In this document: one piece after another, positions 10,024 to 22,413 of the stretch
Numbering within the stretch: position 1 is the first letter of the stretch
Layout of the letters: every line of letters begins with the position of its first letter
Source: a virus
Virus record (IMG/VR): IMGVR_UViG_3300027659_000216
Coordinates: 1-23,091 of that record
Reading direction: 5' to 3' (one strand)
Length of the DNA: 23,091 nucleotides
Made by a program: the position numbers and the translations under genes
Notes under the pieces: generated by a model
What the model was told of the DNA's origin: nothing
The model's input: only the letters and a program-made list of their open reading frames with translations
The model's database searches: none

Positions 10024-10229
10024 TGCAAGCACAAGACTACGCAACAGTTGCTGTTGCAGTAATGACAATCATAGGTGGCTTTGCTGGCGCGGTGCGTTGG
10101 ATGGTTAAGCACTACCTCAATGAACTTAAACCTAATTCTGGCTCAAGCCTCAAAGATTCAGTCACAAGACTAGAGGAAAAAGTAGAAATCCTTTATCAGA
10201 TGATGTTGCACAAGGGAAGAAATGAATGA
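10023..10229 (+). CDS. Small membrane protein with coiled coil, holin/antiholin-like (68 aa)
   Basis: A single transmembrane helix (about residues 8-28, VAVAVMTIIGGFAGAVRWMV) is followed by a charged coiled-coil segment (SVTRLEEKVEILYQMML). This layout is usual for lysis-cassette membrane proteins of actinophages. AGGACGG at 10012-10018 is the ribosome-binding site; the ATG overlaps the preceding TAA. The stop overlaps the peptidase start by four bases, tying it to lysis. It could be a holin, an antiholin or a spanin-like factor. Confidence 0.65.
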   Translation: MQAQDYATVAVAVMTIIGGFAGAVRWMVKHYLNELKPNSGSSLKDSVTRLEEKVEILYQMMLHKGRNE

Positions 10230-10693
10230 AGAGACTTGCCAAGAAAGCCACGCCTGCCGCTATTGCTGTTCTGCGCCAAGCCACAGCAATCAGTCCCTCT
10301 CGCAAGAAAGCCAGCGATGGTCTACTACCATCAGCAGCACATCTAAAACAGAATCCTGACAGCGACCACAACACAGGTTACGCTACAGATTTAACGCACG
10401 ATCCTAAGCACAAGATTGATTGTGCCGAGATATTCAAAGAGCTACAAAAAGATAAACGAGTAAAGTATTTAATTTTTAATCGTAAGATCTGGACACCACA
10501 AAAGGGTGTTGATACTTATACAGGCTCTAATCCTCATACAAATCACATCCATATATCAATCAACGACAAGTGCGGCAACGATACATCCCCCTGGTTTGCT
10601 TGGCTAGATAGACCAGTGTATTCAACTGTTGACCAAGCCAGGTTAGCAGCATCAAAGATAAAGCCACTCCCTAAGAAGAAAGTGAAACGATGA
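10226..10693 (+). CDS. Endolysin: M15-type zinc peptidase (155 aa)
   Basis: The motif SDHNTGYATD (46-55) gives zinc ligands His48 and Asp55, and NPHTNHIHIS (103-111) gives the HxH pair (His107, His109). These are the signatures of VanY/Hedgehog-type M15 peptidases that cut peptide bridges in peptidoglycan. The N-terminus is strongly basic and no signal peptide is evident, so access to the wall would need the holin. It lies between two small membrane proteins and overlaps both by four bases, forming a classic lysis cassette. Confidence 0.85.
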   Translation: MKRLAKKATPAAIAVLRQATAISPSRKKASDGLLPSAAHLKQNPDSDHNTGYATDLTHDPKHKIDCAEIFKELQKDKRVKYLIFNRKIWTPQKGVDTYTGSNPHTNHIHISINDKCGNDTSPWFAWLDRPVYSTVDQARLAASKIKPLPKKKVKR

Positions 10694-10963: not shown

Positions 10964-11216
10964 ATGCCATTTTATCGGCAGGACAAGGAATTGTGACAAG
11001 ATTTCCACAACTAACACAGGTTCCATCAAGGAACCACCAGACTATCTCGGAATCCTCAAAGCTTGCCATAACCTGAAAGACCTGTGACCCACAGGTACAT
11101 ACGTGAATGGGTCCTAAACCCCGCAAATCGGCCCCAAAGGGCTTAGGAATGGCACTCCAGAGCTTGAACACGGACAGTCTGGGTAAGCGAAATTGCATAT
11201 AATATGATAACTCCAC
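10962..11216 (-). CDS. Zinc-ribbon protein, leftward (84 aa)
   Basis: The protein carries CTCG and CVSCG separated by about 25 residues (…VFQVMASFEDSEIVWWFLDGT…), a two-knuckle zinc ribbon with a beta hairpin between. I recall related short proteins in actinophages, without known function. The start is uncertain: GTG at 11216 gives 84 residues; ATG at 11198 would remove six. The stop lies inside the T-run of the terminator at 10929-10963. It is a solitary minus-strand gene between two rightward operons and may be independently expressed. Confidence 0.65.
   Translation of the reverse strand: MELSYYMQFRLPRLSVFKLWSAIPKPFGADLRGLGPIHVCTCGSQVFQVMASFEDSEIVWWFLDGTCVSCGNLVTIPCPADKMA
11198..11203 (+). 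promoter_or_regulatory. Candidate -10 box for the rightward replication operon
   Basis: A perfect TATAAT lies 62 bases before the start of the proteasome-like gene, in the interval downstream of the structural terminator where a new promoter is needed. No good -35 box is seen 16-18 bases upstream (CAGTCT at best), so an activator or a non-standard sigma factor may be required. It also overlaps the 5' end of the leftward zinc-ribbon gene. Confidence 0.35.
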
Positions 11217-11220
11217 CCTT

Positions 11221-11241
11221 GTGTCGTGTGACCAACGACAC
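11221..11241. promoter_or_regulatory. Inverted repeat in the leader of the proteasome-like gene
   Basis: GTGTCGT at 11221-11227 and ACGACAC at 11235-11241 form a perfect 7-bp dyad around a 7-base centre. It lies between the candidate -10 box and the start codon at 11265, so it could be a repressor operator or a leader RNA hairpin. No T-run follows, so a terminator is unlikely. Confidence 0.5.
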
Positions 11242-11264
11242 GCCGTTGCTGGTAGTCTTGGTTT

Positions 11265-11822
11265 ATGACAACGATTGTGGGTATTGAAGGTATTGATTAC
11301 GCGGTCCTAGTAGCTGACTCACAGATTACTGAGGACAACCTAGTAACTCTAGCCACTAGTACGCCAAAGATAGTTGAGGTTGGTAAGTATCTCATCGGTA
11401 TTTCAGGTGATACCAGACCAGGTGATATCCTTGCATACAACTGGAAACCTCCAGTGTATAAAGGTGAAGAACCAGCACAGTTTATGGGACGTAAGATTAT
11501 TCCTAGTATTATCCAAGTATTTACCGACAACAACTACGACTACAATAAGGCGGACAAAGATGGTGGCTTCGATTATCTCATTGCTTTTAACGGTAATATC
11601 TTTCGTATTGCTTGTGATCTCTCTTTTTTCCAAGCAAATCACGGAGCGTATGGCATTGGTTCTGGGGGTCAGCTTGCTCTTGGCTACCTGTATTCAACTG
11701 TCAAGCCTGATATGGACTTGAACTACTCAAAGAGACACGCCCAAAGAGCCGTTGAGATTGCTTCGGTTCTTGACGCTAACACAGGCAAGCCTTTACAGTT
11801 GGTGGTACAAGAACGGTTCTAG
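11265..11822 (+). CDS. Proteasome beta/HslV-like Ntn hydrolase (185 aa)
   Basis: The sequence begins MTTIVGIEG; removal of Met1 exposes a Thr nucleophile. Asp18 in VADSQIT and Lys35 in STPK correspond to Asp17 and Lys33 of proteasome beta subunits (one residue offset for Lys). GIGSGGQLALGYL (131-142) matches the GSGG turn that carries the conserved Ser. Length is close to HslV (about 175). No propeptide is present. It should be a threonine peptidase, possibly a self-assembling ring. No ATPase or unfoldase partner is encoded nearby, so it may act alone or with a host ring. It is the first gene of the rightward DNA-metabolism operon. Confidence 0.82.
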   Translation: MTTIVGIEGIDYAVLVADSQITEDNLVTLATSTPKIVEVGKYLIGISGDTRPGDILAYNWKPPVYKGEEPAQFMGRKIIPSIIQVFTDNNYDYNKADKDGGFDYLIAFNGNIFRIACDLSFFQANHGAYGIGSGGQLALGYLYSTVKPDMDLNYSKRHAQRAVEIASVLDANTGKPLQLVVQERF

Positions 11823-11833
11823 GAGGAGTTCTA

Positions 11834-11971
11834 ATGGAAGATGAAGTTAAATATATTCATATGACAGATGAGTATGCTGCACAGTATTGGCATCAACAAG
11901 GTTGGTTAGCGTGCAGACTGGCTTACAAACTATACATTGATGCACAAGAATCTGAAGCAGTGAAAGTATGA
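11834..11971 (+). CDS. Small hypothetical protein (45 aa)
   Basis: A very strong ribosome-binding site, AGGAGG at 11821-11826, precedes ATG 11834 by seven bases. The product is mostly helical with aromatic and charged residues (AAQYWHQQGWLACRLAYKLY). The stop overlaps the start of the exonuclease gene (ATGA), so it is probably co-translated with it. No family is recognised; a small partner or regulator of the exonuclease is one possibility. Confidence 0.65.
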   Translation: MEDEVKYIHMTDEYAAQYWHQQGWLACRLAYKLYIDAQESEAVKV

Positions 11972-12912
11972 TTACTGATCCAAAGGAACTATTACTTACT
12001 GCTCTTAAAGCAGGCGATGCTAAGCGTTCACGATCTACACAGGTACAGATTGGTCCATCAGAGTTAGGTGGATGTCGTCGTAAGGTTTGGTACCGACTTA
12101 ACGATCAACCTGAAACCAACGACAATGAGATGAAGCTTGCTGCAATTATGGGTACTGCCATTCACGCAGCTATTGAAGAAGCATTATCAGATAATAAAGA
12201 TGTGCTTATCGAAACAGCAGTTGAATACAACGGAATGAAAGCACACATTGACTGCTACGTACCAGGCACTGGTGATGTGATTGACTGGAAGACAAGCAAG
12301 GTAAAGAACCTTTCATACTTCCCATCAACACAACAGCGTTGGCAAGTTCAGACCTATGGATATCTATTAGCAAAGAATGGTCACGATGTAAAGCGTGTAT
12401 CTCTAGTTGCTATTGCTCGTGATGGTGATGAGCGAGATGTCAAGGTACATACAGAAGATTACAACGAAGCGATGGCACTAGAAGCATTGGGTTGGTTAGA
12501 AGCTATCAAGGTATCAGAGGTAGCACCAGAGCCAGAGCGAGAAGAAAACTATTGCAAGTTCTATTGCAAGTTCTATGACGCAAGTGGGCAGTTAGGATGC
12601 GTCGGTCTAAAAAAAGAACGTATCGCTAGTGAAGAGGTGTTAATCCAAGACAAGGATGCCTCAACCAATGCGATGAAATACTTACAATTAGACGACAAGA
12701 TTAAAGAGTTGACAAAGGAAAAAGATTCACTAAAGTCTTCCCTTGAAGGTATCGCTGGCGTTACTGATACTGGAATACAGGTGAAATGGTTTAGCGTAGC
12801 TGGACCAACATCAGTAGACAAAGATGAAGTACTTGCTAAACTAGGTTATGTACCTACAAAGCAAGGTGCAGATTCATTAAGGTTAACAATCAAACAATCT
12901 GGAGGAAAGTAA
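11968..12912 (+). CDS. RecB/Cas4-like PD-(D/E)XK exonuclease with Fe-S-type cysteines (314 aa)
   Basis: The nuclease core shows MGTAIH (His66), Asp95 in HID, the catalytic DWK (Asp106, Lys108) and QVQTYGYLL (Gln127), the order found in RecB and Cas4 nucleases. Cys36 (GGCRRKVW) and Cys196, Cys200 and Cys211 match the one-plus-three layout that binds a 4Fe-4S cluster in Cas4/AddB proteins. A helical C-terminal part (220-260) is probably coiled coil. It probably degrades or resects DNA ends in recombination or replication. No Cas genes are near, so a CRISPR role is not suggested. GGAGG starts the next gene inside its end. Confidence 0.85.
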   Translation: MITDPKELLLTALKAGDAKRSRSTQVQIGPSELGGCRRKVWYRLNDQPETNDNEMKLAAIMGTAIHAAIEEALSDNKDVLIETAVEYNGMKAHIDCYVPGTGDVIDWKTSKVKNLSYFPSTQQRWQVQTYGYLLAKNGHDVKRVSLVAIARDGDERDVKVHTEDYNEAMALEALGWLEAIKVSEVAPEPEREENYCKFYCKFYDASGQLGCVGLKKERIASEEVLIQDKDASTNAMKYLQLDDKIKELTKEKDSLKSSLEGIAGVTDTGIQVKWFSVAGPTSVDKDEVLAKLGYVPTKQGADSLRLTIKQSGGK

Positions 12913-13290: not shown

Positions 13291-13560
13291 ATGCGGGAAC
13301 CACACGAGTTTGAGGTTCCTTTATGTGCTCAGGTAGGTGGAGATCTTTTCTTTCCTGAAAAGGAGAACGAAGGCAAGCTCGTACGTCTGAACATTACATC
13401 AGCAAAATCAATCTGTCGTGGTTGTCAACACATTACTGAATGCGCTGAGTGGGGTATCCGAAAGGAACGTCACGGTATCTGGGGTGGACTCACTGATAGT
13501 GAGCGAAAGAAGATACGCAATCAACGACGAATAACATTGGAAGAGGAGAAGAGTGCTTAA
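13291..13560 (+). CDS. WhiB-family Fe-S transcription regulator (89 aa)
   Basis: Four cysteines (Cys12, Cys42, Cys45, Cys51, the last three spaced C-x2-C-x5-C) and the turn HGIWGG (61-66) define the WhiB family. These proteins hold a 4Fe-4S cluster and bind the primary sigma factor to alter promoter choice. The C-terminal ERKKIRNQRR is a basic DNA-contact tail. Phage WhiB proteins are known to repress host whiB genes (TM4). No ribosome-binding site precedes ATG 13291, so coupling with the upstream gene, three bases away, is likely. The start of the ATPase gene overlaps its end. Confidence 0.93.
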   Translation: MREPHEFEVPLCAQVGGDLFFPEKENEGKLVRLNITSAKSICRGCQHITECAEWGIRKERHGIWGGLTDSERKKIRNQRRITLEEEKSA

Positions 13561-14398
13561 CCTATCCCGTGCCTGGGGCGGTGTGACTACCAAAGCCACA
13601 CCACTTCCTGACGTGTGGAAAAATCTAGTTAAGCACTCTATCAAGTTTCGTCGCGGTCAAGTCTGTATGGTCGCTGCTGCACCTAATGCTGGTAAATCAA
13701 TGTTCGCATTGATATATGCAATCAGAGCACAGGTTCCAACGTTATTCTTTTCTGCTGATACAGACACAGCAACAGTAATGATTCGTGCTGCTGCTCATCT
13801 TTCGGGTCACACACAAGTGACAGTCGAAGGTAACATCAATAAAAGTCAGCGCCACTATGATCCTTACCTGGCTAAAGCTTCTCATATTCAATGGGTCTTT
13901 GACTCCAGTCCGTCTCTTGATGATATTGAGATGGAGATTAAAGCCTATGTTGAACTCTACGGTGTGATGCCAGAGTTGATTATCATAGACAACCTAATGA
14001 ATGTGGCAGCAGAGACAGATAATGAATGGGCTGGGCTTCGTGCAATTATGATGGAGTTGCACGATATGGCACGTAAGACTGAGGCTTGTGTGCTTGTACT
14101 CCATCACGTAAGCGAGCAGAGCGAGTATGGTTCTCCTATGATGCCACCACCTAGACGTGCTATTCACGGAAAGGTGAGTCAACTACCAGCTCTAATCCTT
14201 ACGCTTGGGTATGATCCTTCACAGGGTCTACTTCGGATAGCATCAGTCAAGAATCGCTTTGGTCCACACTATGCAGATGCTTCACAATGGGCATCTTTAT
14301 TTGTAGACTTTGGTTCTTGTCAAATAGGCGATGATGATGCGCAAGGTAGGGCCTACCTGCGTAGCAACGGTCAGGAAAGTACATATGGTGCTATCTAA
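13553..14398 (+). CDS. RecA/DnaB-type P-loop ATPase, putative replicative helicase (281 aa)
   Basis: The Walker A sequence is AAAPNAGKS (41-49), the Walker B LIIIDN (142-147), and VLVLHH (180-185) matches the sensor/H-motif region; KNRFGP later fits the arginine-bearing motif of DnaB-like proteins. No N-terminal helicase domain is present, so it corresponds to the C-terminal motor only. It is probably a hexameric DNA motor working with the primase encoded downstream. GTG 13553 follows GAGGAG at 13543-13548 and overlaps the WhiB stop. Confidence 0.85.
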   Translation: MLNLSRAWGGVTTKATPLPDVWKNLVKHSIKFRRGQVCMVAAAPNAGKSMFALIYAIRAQVPTLFFSADTDTATVMIRAAAHLSGHTQVTVEGNINKSQRHYDPYLAKASHIQWVFDSSPSLDDIEMEIKAYVELYGVMPELIIIDNLMNVAAETDNEWAGLRAIMMELHDMARKTEACVLVLHHVSEQSEYGSPMMPPPRRAIHGKVSQLPALILTLGYDPSQGLLRIASVKNRFGPHYADASQWASLFVDFGSCQIGDDDAQGRAYLRSNGQESTYGAI

Positions 14399-17742: not shown

Positions 17743-17912
17743 TCTATGATTACAAGTGTGGCAAGTGCAACGCAACCATATCGGTTGAGCGTTCTATCCA
17801 CGAAGAGGCATCTACTCCTATGTGCTTTGATTGCCACGAGATTATGAATCGTGTATGGGATTCACCCTCTGTTACATTTAAGGGCAAAGGCTTTTATAGT
17901 ACTGGTGGATAA
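17739..17912 (+). CDS. FmdB-type zinc-ribbon protein (57 aa)
   Basis: MIYDYKCGKC (1-10) and CFDCHE (29-34) form the two CxxC knuckles, and VTFKGKGFYSTGG is the family's C-terminal signature (FKG-GFYST). FmdB-family proteins are small zinc ribbons proposed to be regulatory; none has a settled role. The start overlaps the preceding gene by four bases (ATGA), making it the last gene of the rightward operon before the hairpin at 17916. Confidence 0.85.
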   Translation: MIYDYKCGKCNATISVERSIHEEASTPMCFDCHEIMNRVWDSPSVTFKGKGFYSTGG

Positions 17913-17915
17913 ACA

Positions 17916-17951
17916 AAGAACCCCACTACGGAAGGGTGTAGTGAGGTTCTT
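17916..17951 (-). terminator. Intrinsic terminator of the leftward operon, shared with the rightward one
   Basis: A 14-bp stem (17916-17929 with 17938-17951) has one C-A mismatch in plus-strand RNA that becomes a G-U pair in minus-strand RNA. Reading leftward, the stem runs into a T-rich tract (TTCTTTGTTTAT). It therefore works best for the leftward operon ending at 17986. For the rightward operon it follows FmdB at once but has no T-run, so it is weaker in that direction. Confidence 0.75.
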
Positions 17952-17985
17952 CGGGCCACAAGAAGGAGGGCGTGGTCAGATTGTA

Positions 17986-18393
17986 TCAGTACCATCCACG
18001 TCTGTCGCTATGTCTGAGAGCGCGACACGCACTCCCTGAATAGCGGTGGTCAATGTATCGTAGACCGTGAAGGATTTGTAGTTCAGGCTCTCTACTACGC
18101 TCTCTAAGGAGCTGAGCAATTCCGTAAGCTGTTGATCTAGGGTTGTCTGCGAGGTGGTCAAACCTGCTTTCACGGGTCCATAAGGTGACAAGGCATTTGA
18201 CTTCTGCTTTCGTATATCCGAGAGCTCTACTATATTTGTATGCAATTCGCTTGTTCTCACCCTTCTCCTCCATCGTTGCCTTGGTCTGTATCGGTTTGGG
18301 TAAAGGTAATTCCCCTAGCCTTTGCACGTGCAACGATACGAGGGCTAATAGTAGTGCCGTTAAGATCAATCCACGCTTTGCCTTCTTGTTCAT
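17986..18393 (-). CDS. Membrane-anchored lytic transglycosylase (SLT-type, 135 aa)
   Basis: A basic start and hydrophobic helix (about residues 7-24) form a signal anchor, then a Pro-rich linker (LPLPKP). The catalytic core has LWTRESRFD (71-79; Glu75), ADNPRSTAYGIAQL (82-95) and ILHGLRYIDHRY (107-118), the motifs of SLT lysozyme-like enzymes that cut glycan strands. It is short, so only the catalytic lobe is present. ATG 18393 is preceded by AAGG; GTG 18396 is possible. It overlaps the upstream gene by 137 bases. It is unexpected here, far from the lysis cassette. Confidence 0.85.
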   Translation of the reverse strand: MNKKAKRGLILTALLLALVSLHVQRLGELPLPKPIQTKATMEEKGENKRIAYKYSRALGYTKAEVKCLVTLWTRESRFDHLADNPRSTAYGIAQLLRERSREPELQILHGLRYIDHRYSGSACRALRHSDRRGWY

Positions 18394-18541
18394 CACTCAC
18401 CTTCTCCTTCTCCAGTAATTCTTTGTAGGCGTCTGGATAGGTTTGTGCCAACTTCACCAGGGCGCGATCCCTTGCTCTTCGATAGTTGCGGTAGTAGACG
18501 GCTTGCTTTGCAGCACTCGCCAGTCGCTTCTCATTCTCCAT
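18257..18541 (-). CDS. Arg/Lys-rich hypothetical protein (94 aa)
   Basis: The N-terminal half is a long basic helix (AAKQAVYYRNYRRARDRALV) followed by a charged KELLEKEKVSDEQEGKAW. The C-terminal third (TTISPRIVARAKARGITFTQ and an acidic end) is encoded where the transglycosylase start region also lies, in another frame. GGGAGG at 18551-18556 supports ATG 18541. I recall similar helical proteins in actinophages. It is probably nucleic-acid binding; that is inference from charge. Confidence 0.75.
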   Translation of the reverse strand: MENEKRLASAAKQAVYYRNYRRARDRALVKLAQTYPDAYKELLEKEKVSDEQEGKAWIDLNGTTISPRIVARAKARGITFTQTDTDQGNDGGEG

Positions 18542-18614
18542 TGATCTTATCCTCCCATACAATTAGCACGTATACCACCAGCATTACGGCCAATAGACCC
18601 AACCAATAGCTCAT
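18531..18614 (-). CDS. Tiny single-span membrane protein (27 aa)
   Basis: MSYWLGLLAVMLVVYVLIVW is a single transmembrane helix followed by a charged tail, EDKINGE. ATG overlaps the previous stop (ATGA at 18611-18614), and its end overlaps the next start by 11 bases. Coupled junctions and the clean hydrophobic pattern support translation. It might be a membrane partner of the transglycosylase encoded two genes later. No family is recognised. Confidence 0.6.
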   Translation of the reverse strand: MSYWLGLLAVMLVVYVLIVWEDKINGE

Positions 18615-18862
18615 TGATTCACCGCCAATACCGCATAGATAAGCTTGGTGATGTCAATGGGCTGGCCTACAAGGTGAGCATCTTCGTCATCACTCTCCCA
18701 ACCCGATACAAGGATCCTGCAATTGACAGGGCTATTGCGTAGATAACGGATAGCTTCGTGTGTATCGTTGCCACCCCAAATCGCCTCACCCTTCTCATCT
18801 ACCACTTCATATAGATTCACAAGCGTGGATACACGTGGGTGGAATGCAATTACTTCATTCAT
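18611..18862 (-). CDS. Conserved-looking hypothetical protein (83 aa)
   Basis: The product has an N-terminal strand (LVNLYEVVDEKGEAIWGG), a helix (THEAIRYLRNSP), a strand RILVSGWESDDED and a C-terminal helix (PIDITKLIYAVLAV). I recall the pattern VSGWE--DEDAHLVG-PIDIT in other actinophage small proteins of unknown function. AAGGGAG lies before ATG 18862. The start overlaps the previous gene by eight bases (AATGAATGA), and the stop overlaps the membrane protein. Confidence 0.7.
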   Translation of the reverse strand: MNEVIAFHPRVSTLVNLYEVVDEKGEAIWGGNDTHEAIRYLRNSPVNCRILVSGWESDDEDAHLVGQPIDITKLIYAVLAVNQ

Positions 18863-19022
18863 TCTCTCCCTTCCCTTCTGAATATACATCTACCATAGAT
18901 AAGGCGTAGGTCATTCGCATTAGATTCATTCCCGCCTCCTTCTCTGTCTCTTCGTCTTCTATCTGGATCAATGCAAGGTCACGGCACAATTCTGCCTTAG
19001 CTTGCCAGTATTCTTTATTCAT
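18855..19022 (-). CDS. Small acidic helical protein (55 aa)
   Basis: This 55-residue product is mostly helical (YWQAKAELCRDLALIQIEDE), with one cysteine and no motif. The end KGENE is encoded by bases that also provide the ribosome-binding site for the next gene. It overlaps both neighbours by eight bases through stop-start junctions (ATGAATAA upstream, AATGAATGA downstream). No function can be proposed. Confidence 0.65.
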   Translation of the reverse strand: MNKEYWQAKAELCRDLALIQIEDEETEKEAGMNLMRMTYALSMVDVYSEGKGENE

Positions 19023-19218
19023 TACTCTCACCCTTCTCGCTTGGTAAACACGATACGCACCACGCAGTATCGTTGCCCTCTCTCCCTATCTGTCCCTCTT
19101 CATCTGCCCACACTATGTCATCTTCGTCTAACGGGTCACCGCAGATAAAGCACTTGATCTCCCTCTCCTTCTCCTCTTCATAGAAGATAGGATCGTTAAG
19201 CTCTGGCTCGTATCCCAT
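19015..19218 (-). CDS. Zinc-ribbon-like protein (67 aa)
   Basis: After an acidic N-terminus (LNDPIFYEEEKE), IKCFICGDPL and DTAWCVSCLPSE supply two CxxC pairs about 30 residues apart, a zinc-ribbon layout with an acidic insert (LDEDDIVWADEEGQ). GGGAG before ATG 19218 is the ribosome-binding site. It may bind protein or nucleic acid; the strong acidity argues against direct DNA binding. The stop overlaps the next start by eight bases. Confidence 0.75.
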   Translation of the reverse strand: MGYEPELNDPIFYEEEKEREIKCFICGDPLDEDDIVWADEEGQIGREGNDTAWCVSCLPSEKGESNE

Positions 19219-19337
19219 TAGTAACTCCCGTCCTTAATTGACACCCAACCGCACCTATCGCACTTTACTTTGCCCTCCATAGTCTGACTATCTCCAGACA
19301 TAACCGAGGCGCATACCCAACACTTACCGTATCCCAT
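19218..19337 (-). CDS. Minimal four-cysteine zinc ribbon (39 aa)
   Basis: CWVCAS near the start and CDRCGW (26-31) give two CxxC knuckles within 39 residues, nearly the smallest possible zinc ribbon. TAATG junctions tie it to genes on both sides (19337 and 19218). It starts MGYGKCW, and its downstream neighbour also starts MGYE. No function is known to me. Confidence 0.7.
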   Translation of the reverse strand: MGYGKCWVCASVMSGDSQTMEGKVKCDRCGWVSIKDGSY

Positions 19338-19579
19338 TACTCACCCGCCTCTTCTTGGATCTCCTTCACCACGTCGTTCACGGCCTTGTCTGGCACGTCC
19401 GACGATAGCGTGATCTTGGATAGTGCCTCGCCTAACGCCGTGCGCCAGTTACTTCCCTCCCCAGAAGCTAAGGGAGTAGGTTCGCCACCGCTGAAATCAA
19501 ATAGCTCTACCTTATTCCACTTAGATCCAGCTTGGATCACTAGCGTTACGACGTGCGTTACTGATGTCTCTTCACTCAT
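19337..19579 (-). CDS. Small hypothetical protein (80 aa)
   Basis: Beta strands at the start (SVTHVVTLVIQAGSKWNKVE, LFDFSGGE) lead into helices (WRTALGEALSKI, DKAVNDVVKEIQEEAGE). It contains no cysteines, unlike its neighbours. The C-terminal EEAGE is encoded by bases near the next ribosome-binding region. TAATG junctions at both ends support it as part of the operon. No family is recognised. Confidence 0.7.
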   Translation of the reverse strand: MSEETSVTHVVTLVIQAGSKWNKVELFDFSGGEPTPLASGEGSNWRTALGEALSKITLSSDVPDKAVNDVVKEIQEEAGE

Positions 19580-19719
19580 TACTTATCCTCCTTCGGACAA
19601 TCGTTATACGGATTTTCATTACCTTCATTATCTTCACACGTGCAGAAATTAAACCGCTCCACTTGGGTAGCGTGTGTCAATTCTGCCAGCTCACTCCAGC
19701 TCATTGATTCTTGATCCAT
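19579..19719 (-). CDS. Small Cys-containing acidic protein (46 aa)
   Basis: The 46-residue product has a helical start (SWSELAELTHATQ) and NFCTCEDN…NDCPKEDK with three cysteines and many Asp/Asn residues; metal binding is possible. It begins and ends with TAATG junctions. GGAG precedes ATG 19719 within the upstream gene, and AAGGAGGA near its own end forms the next ribosome-binding site. No function is recognised. Confidence 0.6.
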   Translation of the reverse strand: MDQESMSWSELAELTHATQVERFNFCTCEDNEGNENPYNDCPKEDK

Positions 19720-19898
19720 TACTTACTCTCTCCTTCTACTATTGATCCACCAATTACGCGGGTGTTATCGCAATAACCTATTGCCACTCCACCAATTAGC
19801 GGGTGTTCGGTATCTTCATTGGCTATCTTCATAGCTTCTGAAAGGCTAGTCGCCTTGATTACATAATCCACTTCTAAGGTAACACGATAATTATTCAT
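19719..19898 (-). CDS. Small hypothetical protein of YRVTL type (59 aa)
   Basis: A strand (YRVTLEVDYVIKA), a helix (SLSEAMKIANED) and two more strands (GGVAIGYCDNTR, VIGGSIVEG) make a compact ferredoxin-like or beta-alpha-beta arrangement. The start resembles that of the product at 20079-20363 (YRVTFVTDYL), so the two may be distant paralogues. It overlaps the upstream gene by eight bases and is fused downstream by TAATG. Function is unknown. Confidence 0.65.
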   Translation of the reverse strand: MNNYRVTLEVDYVIKATSLSEAMKIANEDTEHPLIGGVAIGYCDNTRVIGGSIVEGESK

Positions 19899-20079
19899 TA
19901 CTCACTCCTTCTCTCTCGTTAGATAAGTCTAAATGGCAATCATCACATAGTATTTTGCCATTGAAAGCACCGTCGGCATAACCTTCATACTTACATAGCT
20001 CACAAGTGTGAACGGAACATAAGTTATTTACTATCGTCACTTCTTTATCTGTGTATCCGCATACTGAACACTCACTCAT
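19891..20079 (-). CDS. Cys-rich double zinc-ribbon-like protein (62 aa)
   Basis: Cysteine pairs CSVC (4-7), CELC (26-29) and CDDC (45-48), plus Cys21 and His24, give enough ligands for two zinc ions in only 62 residues. The arrangement resembles LIM- or RING-like cross-braced modules more than a single ribbon. Such small domains usually mediate protein contacts. Its start overlaps the preceding stop (TAATG) and its end overlaps the next gene by eight bases. Confidence 0.75.
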   Translation of the reverse strand: MSECSVCGYTDKEVTIVNNLCSVHTCELCKYEGYADGAFNGKILCDDCHLDLSNEREGVSNE

Positions 20080-20363
20080 TACTCCCCCTCCCCTTCTATT
20101 ACTGATACGTGTACGGGTGGAAATTCTCCAAACCCGCCTAGCTCTATCTCCTCATCGTCTAGCAATAAGGTAACGGTTATGTCGTTGATAATCGTCTCGT
20201 CTATCTTACCAATCTCGTCTTCTATGTTATTTATACCATTGATAGTTGCTTGCTCGTACGCCTCATCACTTAGATTCTGAAAGTGTTCATCACCTTCTAT
20301 ACATACGTTAGTAGTGATCGTTAAGTAATCCGTTACGAAGGTAACACGGTAGTCGTAACTCAT
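20079..20363 (-). CDS. Small acidic hypothetical protein (94 aa)
   Basis: Starting SYDYRVTFVTDYLTITTNV, the protein is strand-rich, with a helical middle (EAYEQATINGINNIEDEIG), a strand pair (NDITVTLLLDDEEIELG) and an acidic tail, EGEGE. ATG 20363 with GGGGAGG upstream is chosen over an earlier in-frame start at 20396. High acidity could suggest a DNA mimic or anti-defence protein, but that is speculation. TAATG junctions flank it. Confidence 0.7.
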   Translation of the reverse strand: MSYDYRVTFVTDYLTITTNVCIEGDEHFQNLSDEAYEQATINGINNIEDEIGKIDETIINDITVTLLLDDEEIELGGFGEFPPVHVSVIEGEGE

Positions 20364-20506
20364 TATGCTACCTCCCCGTAACCTATGATTACCCAAGCAC
20401 TATTGAGAATTGCATTCTGCCACTCTCCACAATGCTCGCAAGAATAGTCTGCATTGATAGCCGATAGTACTAACCCGCGTAAGCCACAGAATTTACACTT
20501 GTCCAT
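20363..20506 (-). CDS. Small zinc-ribbon protein (47 aa)
   Basis: CKFCGLRG (4-11) and YSCEHCGEW (21-29) provide two CxxC knuckles with the usual glycine after the second Cys of each pair, a classic short zinc ribbon. The hydrophobic C-terminus (AILNSAWVIIGYGEVA) may pack on the ribbon. It is coupled upstream and downstream by TAATG. Function is unknown. Confidence 0.75.
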   Translation of the reverse strand: MDKCKFCGLRGLVLSAINADYSCEHCGEWQNAILNSAWVIIGYGEVA

Positions 20507-20850
20507 TATGCGCTCACCTTCTCCTTATTAGAATCTAGTAATTGATCTACTAGCTCACGTACTGAATAGATAGCACTATCGTGCGCCTTCACCATTGAAT
20601 CTCCATTGAATCGGAGCGCCTCTACCTTGCCAGCTAATTGATTAAGGCTAGTGTGTACCGTGTGTCTCTCAAAATAGATTCCTGTAGTACCACTCTCCTC
20701 TACCGTACACTCACTTACTATGCTCCAATAAGACTTCTTATTCTTATCGTGATAGGTATACACCTTCACCCGATAGTTATTATCTAACGTCCACGTATCT
20801 ACACACTTACGCGATACGTGATTCAAGAATCTTTCGTGCTTAGCATTCAT
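20506..20850 (-). CDS. Hypothetical protein, first of a transcription sub-block (114 aa)
   Basis: The product has NNYRVKVYTYHDKNKKSYW and a strand-rich middle (IVSECTVEESGTTGIYFERH), then a helical C-terminus (VRELVDQLLDSNKEKVSA). The C-terminal EKVSA also encodes the ribosome-binding site of the next gene. GGAAGGGG lies in the leader repeat (20856-20869), with good spacing to ATG 20850. It follows a 116-base gap with a 15-bp hairpin. No family is recognised. Confidence 0.75.
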   Translation of the reverse strand: MNAKHERFLNHVSRKCVDTWTLDNNYRVKVYTYHDKNKKSYWSIVSECTVEESGTTGIYFERHTVHTSLNQLAGKVEALRFNGDSMVKAHDSAIYSVRELVDQLLDSNKEKVSA

Positions 20851-20855
20851 TACTT

Positions 20856-20869
20856 ACCCCTTCCAAGGT
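20856..20869 (-). repeat. Leader repeat containing the ribosome-binding site, copy 1
   Basis: Reading leftward, ACCTTGGAAGGGGT immediately precedes the gene at 20850. An identical 14-base copy lies at 21621-21634 before the gene at 21615. Both contain GGAAGGGG, the ribosome-binding site, plus extra conserved bases (ACCTT) that translation alone would not require. Confidence 0.7.
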
Positions 20870-20890
20870 AGTTATTAGGGCGATTCACCC

Positions 20891-20928
20891 TCCCTCCCCC
20901 TCCACTTCTGCCCGTGGAGGAGGAGAGA
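20891..20928 (-). promoter_or_regulatory. 15-bp leader hairpin in the gap between operon blocks
   Basis: Arms 20891-20905 and 20914-20928 pair over 15 bp. Two positions are G-U in leftward RNA but C-A mismatches in rightward RNA, so the structure is selected in the leftward transcript. The eight-base loop reads GGGCAGAA. No U-run follows, so it is either a non-canonical terminator or an mRNA-stabilising or processing element. Confidence 0.7.
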
Positions 20929-20966
20929 TAGCTAACCGCTATTGCATTACCTTACCGTATCTTATC

Positions 20967-21092
20967 CTATAAGTACTCAAATATATCGCCGTCTCCAATT
21001 ATATCTTCTATGTCCGACAAGGTATAAGGATCCTTGCCGTAGATTAGATCGTCTAATTGAGAGATAATCTCCTCCTTCGTATCTCCTATCAC
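20967..21092 (-). CDS. Tiny acidic protein (41 aa)
   Basis: GTG 21092 follows GGGAG and overlaps the preceding TGA (GTGA). The product (GDTKEEIISQLDDLIYGKDP, then LSDIEDIIGDGDIFEYL) is acidic with repeated DDL/EDI/GD helical turns. It resembles small acidic inhibitors or DNA mimics in composition only. It closes the middle block of the leftward operon, before the hairpin-bearing gap. Confidence 0.6.
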   Translation of the reverse strand: MIGDTKEEIISQLDDLIYGKDPYTLSDIEDIIGDGDIFEYL

Positions 21093-21280
21093 TCTTCTCC
21101 CTCCTCTCCACAATCGCATAAGTGTCCGCACGTGTAGCAGACATAAGCCCCGCCCCATTGTGTCCAATAGCCGTATCTCTTCTCACCCTCCACTTCCCTA
21201 TAGAATCTATCGTTACCGTCTAGGAGCGTGGCCCCCTGTAGCTCACGCTCACGGCGTAGCGGGCTTATACCGTTATTCAC
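21089..21280 (-). CDS. Small protein with Cys cluster (63 aa)
   Basis: A basic N-terminal part (GISPLRRERELQ) leads to YWTQWGGAYVCYTCGHLCDC, which packs four cysteines and one histidine into ten residues and may bind zinc. GTG 21280 is preferred to an earlier ATG at 21307 because it makes the same GTGAATAA junction as elsewhere in the operon and leaves the 34-aa gene upstream intact. The end GEEGEE contains the ribosome-binding site for the next gene. Confidence 0.65.
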   Translation of the reverse strand: MNNGISPLRRERELQGATLLDGNDRFYREVEGEKRYGYWTQWGGAYVCYTCGHLCDCGEEGEE

Positions 21281-21377
21281 TCTTCTCACCCTTCTCCTCT
21301 TGCTCATAAGATCCGACGGGAATAATCTGGACGATACCCGCCTCCTGGAGAATCTTCAATAGATCTTGATTACTCAC
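21273..21377 (-). CDS. Tiny hypothetical protein (34 aa)
   Basis: GTG 21377 follows GGAGG with seven bases spacing and overlaps the preceding TGA. The product has a short amphipathic helix (QDLLKILQEAG), a strand (IVQIIPVG) and an acidic tail (YEQEEKGEKSE) whose codons supply the next ribosome-binding site. It overlaps the next gene by eight bases. No function is recognised; the translation signals are its support. Confidence 0.55.
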   Translation of the reverse strand: MSNQDLLKILQEAGIVQIIPVGSYEQEEKGEKSE

Positions 21378-21463
21378 TCTTGATCCTCCTTGCAATTGTG
21401 AGGCGGATACCACGCGCTTGCCGTGTAATTATCTCCACACCACGGACACATAGCGCCACTCAC
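21374..21463 (-). CDS. Minimal zinc-finger-like protein (29 aa)
   Basis: In 29 residues it holds CPWCGD (6-11) and HNC (22-24), that is two Cys plus His/Cys, the ligand set of a single zinc knuckle. GTG 21463 overlaps the preceding stop (GTGA). An in-frame upstream extension exists but overlaps the 51-aa gene throughout, so the short form is preferred. It is one of the smallest likely genes in the window. Confidence 0.55.
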   Translation of the reverse strand: MSGAMCPWCGDNYTASAWYPPHNCKEDQE

Positions 21464-21615
21464 GCGCTCACCCGCTCCTTCTGCCCTAGTGTGATCCCCG
21501 CTAAGGCGTAGGCCTTCACGATAGCCTTCATTCGTGGCGCGGTTAGATCCGCGCTTACGATCTCTTCTCCCGTAGATAGATCTACAAGGCTCACCCGATT
21601 CTTCTCGTACTTCAT
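21460..21615 (-). CDS. Small hypothetical protein (51 aa)
   Basis: ATG 21615 has the leader repeat's GGAAGGGG at good spacing. The product contains NRVSLVDLSTGEEIVSADL, a beta-hairpin-like region, then MKAIVKAYALAGITL, a helix. The end QKERVSA is very similar to the end of the 114-aa product (KEKVSA), since both tails encode ribosome-binding sequences. It opens the middle block of the leftward operon. Confidence 0.7.
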   Translation of the reverse strand: MKYEKNRVSLVDLSTGEEIVSADLTAPRMKAIVKAYALAGITLGQKERVSA

Positions 21616-21620
21616 AGATA

Positions 21621-21634
21621 ACCCCTTCCAAGGT
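21621..21634 (-). repeat. Leader repeat containing the ribosome-binding site, copy 2
   Basis: This is an identical 14-base copy of the leader element at 20856-20869, five bases before the start codon at 21615. A GGGCAGAA sequence follows further upstream at 21640-21647, as in the hairpin loop of copy 1. Confidence 0.7.
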
Positions 21635-21640
21635 TTCAAT

Positions 21641-21685
21641 TCTGCCCCTAGTGGCAGACCACCCCGCACGGCGCGAGGCCGTGCG
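21641..21685 (-). promoter_or_regulatory. Two leader hairpins before the middle block
   Basis: TCTGCC (21641-21646) pairs with GGCAGA (21653-21658) around six bases. An 8-bp stem (21665-21672 with 21678-21685), GC-rich with a five-base loop, lies beside it. Together they fill the gap between the membrane-protein gene and the block starting at 21615. No T-run is present. They could separate transcripts or stabilise the 5' end. Confidence 0.55.
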
Positions 21686-21698
21686 AGATAGTCCGTCC

Positions 21699-21842
21699 CT
21701 ACAGATTGCAATCGGCCATTGATCCTATGCAGATCCCCCCTTCATTGATCCACACGTTACCCGTGATCCAGAAGGCCACGGCGATTAGAAGGCCGACGGC
21801 CACGCCTAACACGAAGGCCCCGCGCTTGGTGAGATTCTCCAC
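21699..21842 (-). CDS. Small membrane or exported protein (47 aa)
   Basis: GTG 21842 has GGAGG seven bases upstream. A basic start (ENLTKRG) and one hydrophobic helix (AFVLGVAVGLLIAVAFWITG) are followed by a short tail with two cysteines (GICIGSMADCNL) that might form a disulfide outside the cell. It could be a superinfection-exclusion or envelope factor, but no family is recognised. Its start lies just inside the gap left by the preceding gene. Confidence 0.65.
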   Translation of the reverse strand: MENLTKRGAFVLGVAVGLLIAVAFWITGNVWINEGGICIGSMADCNL

Positions 21843-21844
21843 GA

Positions 21845-22240
21845 TTAGGCCTCCAATCCGTCGAGCATTAGGGAGGCGTAACGCCACACGGGAGACACAC
21901 TAGGCACGTCGATTCTTGCTCCGTCGTACCAATCTTGGAATACGTATTCGATCCGCTTAATACCGTCGCCGTCGTGGTGTACCTCGATCCAATCGGCGGG
22001 GCCTCCCCCGCTCCACGTTAAGCGGGTTACCTTGTAAGTCTCATAACCGTACGCGAATTCGTAGATCTGTTCATTGGCTTGATCGCGTAGATCGTCGTCG
22101 CCTTCATAATCATCGGCAATAGTAAAGAGATCGCGTAGATCCTTCTCACGATCCGTTAATTCTTGGCCAATTCTAGCCTTGCAACTCTTGGCCTTGATCT
22201 CTTCTAATTGTGCGCCTAATTCGTCAATGCTAGTACTCAT
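21845..22240 (-). CDS. Conserved-looking hypothetical protein (131 aa)
   Basis: The N-terminal half is helical and charged (DELGAQLEEIKAKSCKARIG). The C-terminal half has VTRLTWSGGGPADWIEVHHD and IEYVFQDWYDGARIDV. I recall the 'TGGP-D…YVFQDWF' pattern in several actinophage proteins of unknown function, some of which are early genes. GAAGGAT precedes ATG 22240, and the start overlaps the previous stop (TAATG). Confidence 0.75.
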   Translation of the reverse strand: MSTSIDELGAQLEEIKAKSCKARIGQELTDREKDLRDLFTIADDYEGDDDLRDQANEQIYEFAYGYETYKVTRLTWSGGGPADWIEVHHDGDGIKRIEYVFQDWYDGARIDVPSVSPVWRYASLMLDGLEA

Positions 22241-22413
22241 TATTTTAGATCCTTCACAATAGTTTCCAATTCACCAATACACCAAGCGATCTCATCGCTT
22301 GATTCTGGAGACTCCAGAATTTCAATAACCTTCATTAACTTAATGCAGATCTCTTCATCGCGTACCAATCGGTGAAGAAGGTTTCTAACGTGATAACTAT
22401 TTGTCTCTAACAT
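22240..22413 (-). CDS. First gene of the leftward operon (57 aa)
   Basis: A small, all-helical product (HVRNLLHRLVRDEEICIKLM, VIEILESPESSDEIAWCI) with two cysteines. GAAAGGATC upstream of ATG 22413 is the ribosome-binding site. It is the gene closest to the regulatory region, so it is likely among the first expressed after infection if the promoter near 23000 is active. No family is recognised. Confidence 0.7.
   Translation of the reverse strand: MLETNSYHVRNLLHRLVRDEEICIKLMKVIEILESPESSDEIAWCIGELETIVKDLK

Follow-up and report, generated by a model that had tools for sequence, protein, structure and literature searches.

A predicted proteasome-fold threonine protease encoded by a core gene of a freshwater actinophage family

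Known proteasome homologs without unfoldases and the protease of the window

Proteasome homologs that lack a partner ATPase have been described in both bacteria and phages. The bacterial protein BPH (beta-proteobacteria proteasome homolog) is encoded by a chromosomal gene, has no partner unfoldase, forms 14-mers and binds epoxomicin at Thr1 (PMC5777263). In recombinant form BPH showed no activity towards standard peptides or casein (PMC5777263), and a cofactor may therefore be needed. Two groups of phage proteasome homologs, PPH and AAH, were described in 2021, neither with a co-occurring AAA+ partner; the study found no Actinobacteria-specific phage with AAH, and its Table 1 has no HslV entry for Actinobacteria (PMC8665760). 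Together with PHROG 1040 and a gene annotated 'HslV' in Actinomycetia phage DSL-LC01, these groups make phage proteasome homologs without a partner ATPase an already known class.

The DNA analysed here (the window) is a 23-kb IMG/VR record (IMGVR_UViG_3300027659_000216; 23,091 nucleotides) and therefore covers only part of a phage genome of roughly 40 kb. Its features are collected in Table 1; an Rfam search of the window gave no match. The protease gene encodes a protein with the N-terminus MTTIVGIEG that matches the Pfam family PF00227 Proteasome (8.8e-12; 45.5 bits, exceeding the curated cut-off of 22.4) and PHROG 1040, 'peptidase HslV family' (1.4e-25), with weak NCBIfam matches to the archaeal proteasome beta subunit (2e-9) and HslV (0.0025). 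Judged by these profiles, its homology to the proteasome family is far above chance. In IMG/VR, relatives occur on at least 597 stretches; the 80 nearest relatives share 89–94% identity and are without exception 185 aa long. Scans of 84,980 species genomes with the protease profile and a phage WhiB profile, which are pattern-based and may miss distant relatives, returned none, and a bacterial or prophage origin was rejected on this basis. Plasmids yielded only distant AAH-like relatives, most of them from Rhizobium and Paraburkholderia.

Table 1. Coordinates of the features discussed in the window.
Feature	Position	Strand	Basis or remark
M15-type peptidoglycan peptidase (lysis), probable	10226..10693	+	Residue motif only; 65% identity to E7 counterpart
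Palindrome GTGTCGTGTGACCAACGACAC, overlapping the -35 region	11221..11241		Candidate operator
-10-like hexamer TAGTCT, 6 nt before ATG	11253..11258	+	Probable leaderless promoter of the protease gene
Proteasome-fold (Ntn) N-terminal Thr hydrolase, 185 aa	11265..11822	+	Sequence, profiles, model
45-aa ORF with strong Shine-Dalgarno site (TAGGAGGAG)	11834..11971	+	Slot between protease and exonuclease genes
Cas4/PD-(D/E)XK exonuclease	11968..12912	+	Nearest conserved gene downstream of the protease in the window's clade
WhiB-family transcription factor	13291..13560	+	Marks actinobacterial host; three genes downstream of the protease
DnaB/RecA-like replicative helicase	13553..14398	+	Ortholog is the source of PF00004 matches in the E7 clade

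A single-chain AlphaFold2 model of the protease, built from 51 aligned members, has a mean pLDDT of 91.4 and a pTM of 0.87, with helices H1 (residues 50–59), H2 (70–88), H3 (135–145) and H4 (152–169) and a last strand at 178–183. Foldseek searches with this model placed BPH at the top (5.3e-12), followed by HslV and proteasome beta subunits. VIA-align comparisons gave Z values of 20–21 to solved proteasome beta subunits, with model residue 2 opposite chain residue 1 (Thr1), and of 20.4 to epoxomicin-bound BPH (5ovt). Profiles and model thus agree in confirming the proteasome (Ntn) fold of the predicted protein, and the Ntn sandwich on which the original prediction hinged is present at high model confidence.

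The catalytic residues named in that prediction are borne out in the sequence. Thr1 corresponds to residue 2, Asp17 to residue 18, the Lys33-equivalent to residue 35 and the oxyanion Gly to residue 48, the GSGG turn spans residues 132–135, and Asp170 and Thr173 lie near the C-terminal end. Among 244 relatives, Thr1, the Lys33-equivalent and both Gly residues of the GSG turn are invariant (244/244 each), and Asp17 and the oxyanion Gly are each kept in 239. The codons of the catalytic residues differ synonymously (ACA, ACC, ACT and ACG for Thr1) as the residue stays constant. The dN/dS of the gene is 0.116 over 6,481 pairs, compared with 0.10 for the phage helicase and 0.17 for WhiB; by this sequence measure it is under strong purifying selection. 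No propeptide precedes Thr1, as had been claimed, the Thr being residue 2 in all 244 relatives.

Placement among the described subfamilies is closest to BPH, the best match in profile searches (2.3e-12 over residues 2–183; HslV, 7.6e-11). Like the phage protease, BPH (PDB 5OVS, 5OVT, 5OVU) has Thr1 without a propeptide, no partner ATPase and a pore loop longer than that of HslV; however, the two share only about 21% identity, the BPH loop is more acidic (five successive Asp/Glu in Cm-BPH, where the phage segment is mostly net -2 to -3 with no Asp/Glu run), and an R51...W60-P-P motif is found in the phage clade and missing from BPH. Further clade-specific conserved positions surround H1 and H2 (W60-x-P62-P63 and K77/P80/S81). 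The protease was originally described as proteasome/HslV-like and close to HslV in size. The proteasome-fold threonine peptidase part of this description stands on profiles and model, and size is among the features shared with HslV (ClpQ), together with fold, catalytic set and GSGG turn. HslV in the strict sense was rejected on score (17.5 bits against a cut-off of 137 and 16.6 against 157.75 for the NCBIfam HslV equivalogs), on the long pore loop (an H2-to-strand segment of 15–20 residues in the 51 members, where E. coli HslV has an alignment gap) and on the lack of an HslU gene in 23 related phage records. A 20S beta subunit (PrcB/PsmB) would be accompanied by an alpha partner and, in most members, carry a propeptide; the window, itself a fragment, holds one proteasome-family ORF, and Thr is residue 2 throughout the 244 relatives.

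PPH resembles the window protease in being a phage-encoded proteasome homolog with no AAA+ partner and no propeptide, yet it is about 140 aa long and lacks helix H2, and membership was rejected on length and on the presence of H2. AAH, also found in phages without an AAA+ partner, appears to be the nearest named phage-associated group, as judged from AAH-like proteins. AAH and AAH-like plasmid proteins show about 27% identity and share with the phage protease a pattern of Arg and Pro-Pro residues downstream of the oxyanion turn, whereas the AAH-like plasmid and Moorella, Vibrio and Psychrobacter proteins have MTC...GFTSSFRMGQLL, unlike the window protease. In a subfamily tree containing such AAH-like proteins, with long branches and weak deep support so that only local groups are trusted, the AAH-like Rhizobium/Paraburkholderia plasmid and Moorella/Vibrio/Psychrobacter phage proteins cluster on one branch (99/98) and the window and E7 groups on a separate one (94/88).

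Two further observations concern these AAH-like genes. The annotated start of the 'peptidase HslV family' gene of Moorella phage MTATph1 (L089, 4001–4043) seems too far downstream; an upstream TTG start would add LTCIAGLVEDGVIYMGADS, catalytic Thr included. On Rhizobium and Paraburkholderia plasmids (L328, 229–504; L329, 241–504), the AAH-like gene overlaps a small upstream gene (about 90 aa) by 4 bases, an arrangement that suggests translational coupling and a possible partner of the AAH-like gene there.

A single-copy core gene at two genomic locations

The nearest sequenced phages to the phage of the window are LanE43-AprE7 and LanE43-AprF5 (E7 and F5), isolated on 'Ca. Planktophila' LanE-43 (PMC10202952). 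They belong to the window's phage family, with conserved gene order, and gene-for-gene comparison of E7 with a relative of the window (G001) gives identities of 46% for terminase, 50% for portal, 43% for capsid and 44% for helicase. The proteasome homologs of E7, F5 and DSL-LC01, the last of which adjoins whiB, come from the same actinophage group and share 32–35% identity with the window protease. The protease is a single-copy core gene of this freshwater actinophage family: all 34 helicase-found loci that extend far enough upstream carry it, and each of four genomes searched holds one copy and none holds two. A WhiB gene occurs in nearly all relatives with enough sequence. The actinobacterial host assumed in the original prediction is supported by the WhiB gene at 13291–13560 and by the family relation to the Planktophila phages.

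The position of the protease gene differs between the two clades of the family. At 204 loci of the window's clade, with one or both neighbours present, its place is between the lysis cassette and the exonuclease/replication genes; at 81 loci of the E7 clade it follows the portal gene within 400 bp. Because one core gene occupies two locations, its position and control have changed between clades while the gene itself was kept. The position directly after the portal gene is the classical slot of a prohead protease, and in E7 (L085, 5698–8727) the proteasome homolog stands in exactly this place; location between the portal and capsid genes was found in the 81 E7-clade loci and not in the 204 loci of the window's clade. 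The E7 protease gene is followed by genes for proteins of 84, 147 and 1,764 aa, then by a putative scaffold gene (weak match) and the capsid gene. In other phages the protease gene lies beside thyX (Microbacterium phage Pumpernickel), near RNR/PhoH (J2-1) or in the early/middle region (VpV262).

A protein of 1,591–1,764 aa follows the portal region in both clades (L249, 17540–20000 with L250, 1–2315; L085, 8727–14021). It is about 26% conserved between them, has no family matches and is possibly an internal virion or ejection protein.

Expression and surroundings of the gene in the window's clade

In the window's clade, no Shine-Dalgarno site was found ahead of the protease gene. Of 99 distinct upstream regions, 94 have a TANNNT hexamer with diverse middle triplets at a distance of 6–7 nt from the ATG, against a background of 2.7%. 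Leaderless transcripts are common in actinobacteria, and the upstream sequences suggest that the gene probably has its own promoter and a leaderless transcript. The palindrome overlapping the -35 region has the form GTGTCG-N-CGACAC, and its arms, as judged by eye among relatives, change together (GTGTCGC/GCGACAC, GTTGC/GCAAC, GTGTCT/AGACAC). Of 171 distinct upstream regions, 82 carry the palindrome in its exact form 23–28 nt upstream of the ATG, and in 1.42 Mb this form recurs at just one other place; it is best read as a candidate operator dedicated to the protease gene. A further conserved element, CATATAATATGATA / CATATTGTA, lies some 60 nt ahead of the ATG (window 11195–11264) and may be a second promoter whose transcript would run through the palindrome. 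The protease promoter of the window's clade heads the replication module, whereas the E7/F5 gene, in the structural region behind the portal gene, has a Shine-Dalgarno site and lacks the leaderless promoter and palindrome. Given these two arrangements, action at the start of infection, as suggested in the original prediction, is only one possibility.

The slot between the protease and exonuclease genes (11823–11968) looks like an accessory-gene hot spot. Among about 200 relatives it holds unrelated small ORFs, including a family of 40–53 aa with 'EYAAHYW/F..GW.ACRLA', 28-aa membrane-like peptides ending in DLWVDWKYKK, excisionase-like HTH proteins and, in some loci, a PAPS-reductase/DndC-like protein of 270–290 aa with VVMFSGGIGSWAAAK. 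Because this content is hypervariable, the 45-aa ORF of the window is not a conserved partner, and it was rejected as a partner or adaptor of the protease. Further downstream, window 17750–22300 contains small minus-strand ORFs with inverted GC skew, only some of them conserved in G001; four ORFs sampled from this region had no PHROG matches.

Proposed role in the infected cell and competing readings

A search of 23 related phage records, among them genomes of about 40 kb, detected no HslU/ClpX-type AAA_2 gene (PF07724), so on the phage side the claim that no ATPase partner accompanies the protease holds. PF00004 AAA matches in the E7 clade were rejected as an unfoldase, as they correspond to a RecA/DnaB-like helicase orthologous to that of the window.

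Taken on sequence and model, the protease is predicted to be a self-compartmentalising threonine protease that works without a phage-encoded unfoldase and remodels the proteome of the infected cell, a reading we consider probable, albeit with considerable reservation. The host methionine aminopeptidase, whose specificity is the basis for expecting removal of Met ahead of Thr, would cut the start Met directly in front of the Thr and so expose Thr1 with no autoprocessing. By analogy with BPH, the subunits would build a closed single or double ring that encloses the active sites, and the pore loop between H2 and the following strand (15–20 residues, net -2 to -3) may gate entry. ATP-independent degradation could then act on unfolded segments, on peptides or on a small number of specific proteins, and the remodelling would consist of host-factor inactivation, amino-acid recycling or both. 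Expression in the window's clade would be driven from a probably leaderless promoter belonging to the gene itself and controlled by an operator dedicated to it. Most other phages examined have the gene in the company of DNA and nucleotide genes, which favours an intracellular role over a virion role.

The E7-clade location beside the portal gene would fit a virion role too. A proteasome-fold enzyme acting as a prohead protease and trimming scaffold or internal virion proteins is proposed because the E7-clade gene occupies the usual slot for such an enzyme at 81 loci; the single copy in each of the four genomes searched and the lack of any other recognised protease between the portal and major capsid genes in the window's clade point the same way. 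We nevertheless regard capsid maturation as unlikely, since the gene of the window's clade lies far from the head genes under its own promoter and operator, the capsid protein has no N-terminal delta-like extension, and the gene is found beside thyX in Pumpernickel, in the early/middle region of VpV262 and beside whiB in DSL-LC01. Proteasome-type active sites also work inside rings, which makes them poorly suited to trimming within a capsid, and we know of no precedent for the proteasome fold as a phage morphogenesis protease. A broader form of the idea, in which a proteasome-fold threonine protease took over the proteolysis of virion assembly and maturation, from the prohead slot in the E7 clade and, in the window's clade, from a site under separate regulation, draws on the proteasome homolog being the only recognised protease linked to the E7-clade head module; it appears quite improbable, and if true would be the first known use of the proteasome fold in phage morphogenesis.

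Since the phage encodes no unfoldase, a motor could instead be borrowed from the host (Mpa/ARC or the Clp family), with W60-x-P62-P63 and K77/P80/S81 as a conceivable docking face, or the protein could replace or poison a host Pup-proteasome ring. Its relative BPH has no partner ATPase (PMC5777263), and host HslU is an unlikely partner because HslV is not listed for Actinobacteria (PMC8665760). With about 20% identity to proteasome beta chains, mixed rings with the host proteasome are unlikely; the protein has no alpha-type N-terminal helix and the window no second proteasome-family gene. No literature report of the host's proteasome content was found. The hijacking, replacement or poisoning of a Pup-proteasome put forward in the original prediction thus gained no positive support, and dependence on a host ATPase or ring is, like capsid maturation, improbable. 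A non-degradative enzyme, such as a highly selective peptidase, ligase or transpeptidase, would be in keeping with the presence of connectase in the superfamily (PMC8665760) and with the inertness of BPH towards general substrates (PMC5777263); however, the model lacks connectase's two-helix insertion between S3 and S4 and the Thr1/Asp17/Lys33 and GSGG set is ordinary, making such an activity very improbable.

What is new here is a large actinophage branch of the known class, the core status of its protease gene, the two genomic locations, and a dedicated promoter with a palindrome. These phages probably infect some of the most abundant bacteria of fresh water. Phage proteasome homologs have been catalogued, yet we know of none whose function has been demonstrated. 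Because the family includes two cultured phages (E7 and F5) and a cultured host (LanE-43), the function of a viral proteasome subunit becomes testable. The two locations lead to two sharply different predictions, takeover or recycling versus virion maturation, which a single proteomics experiment could separate.
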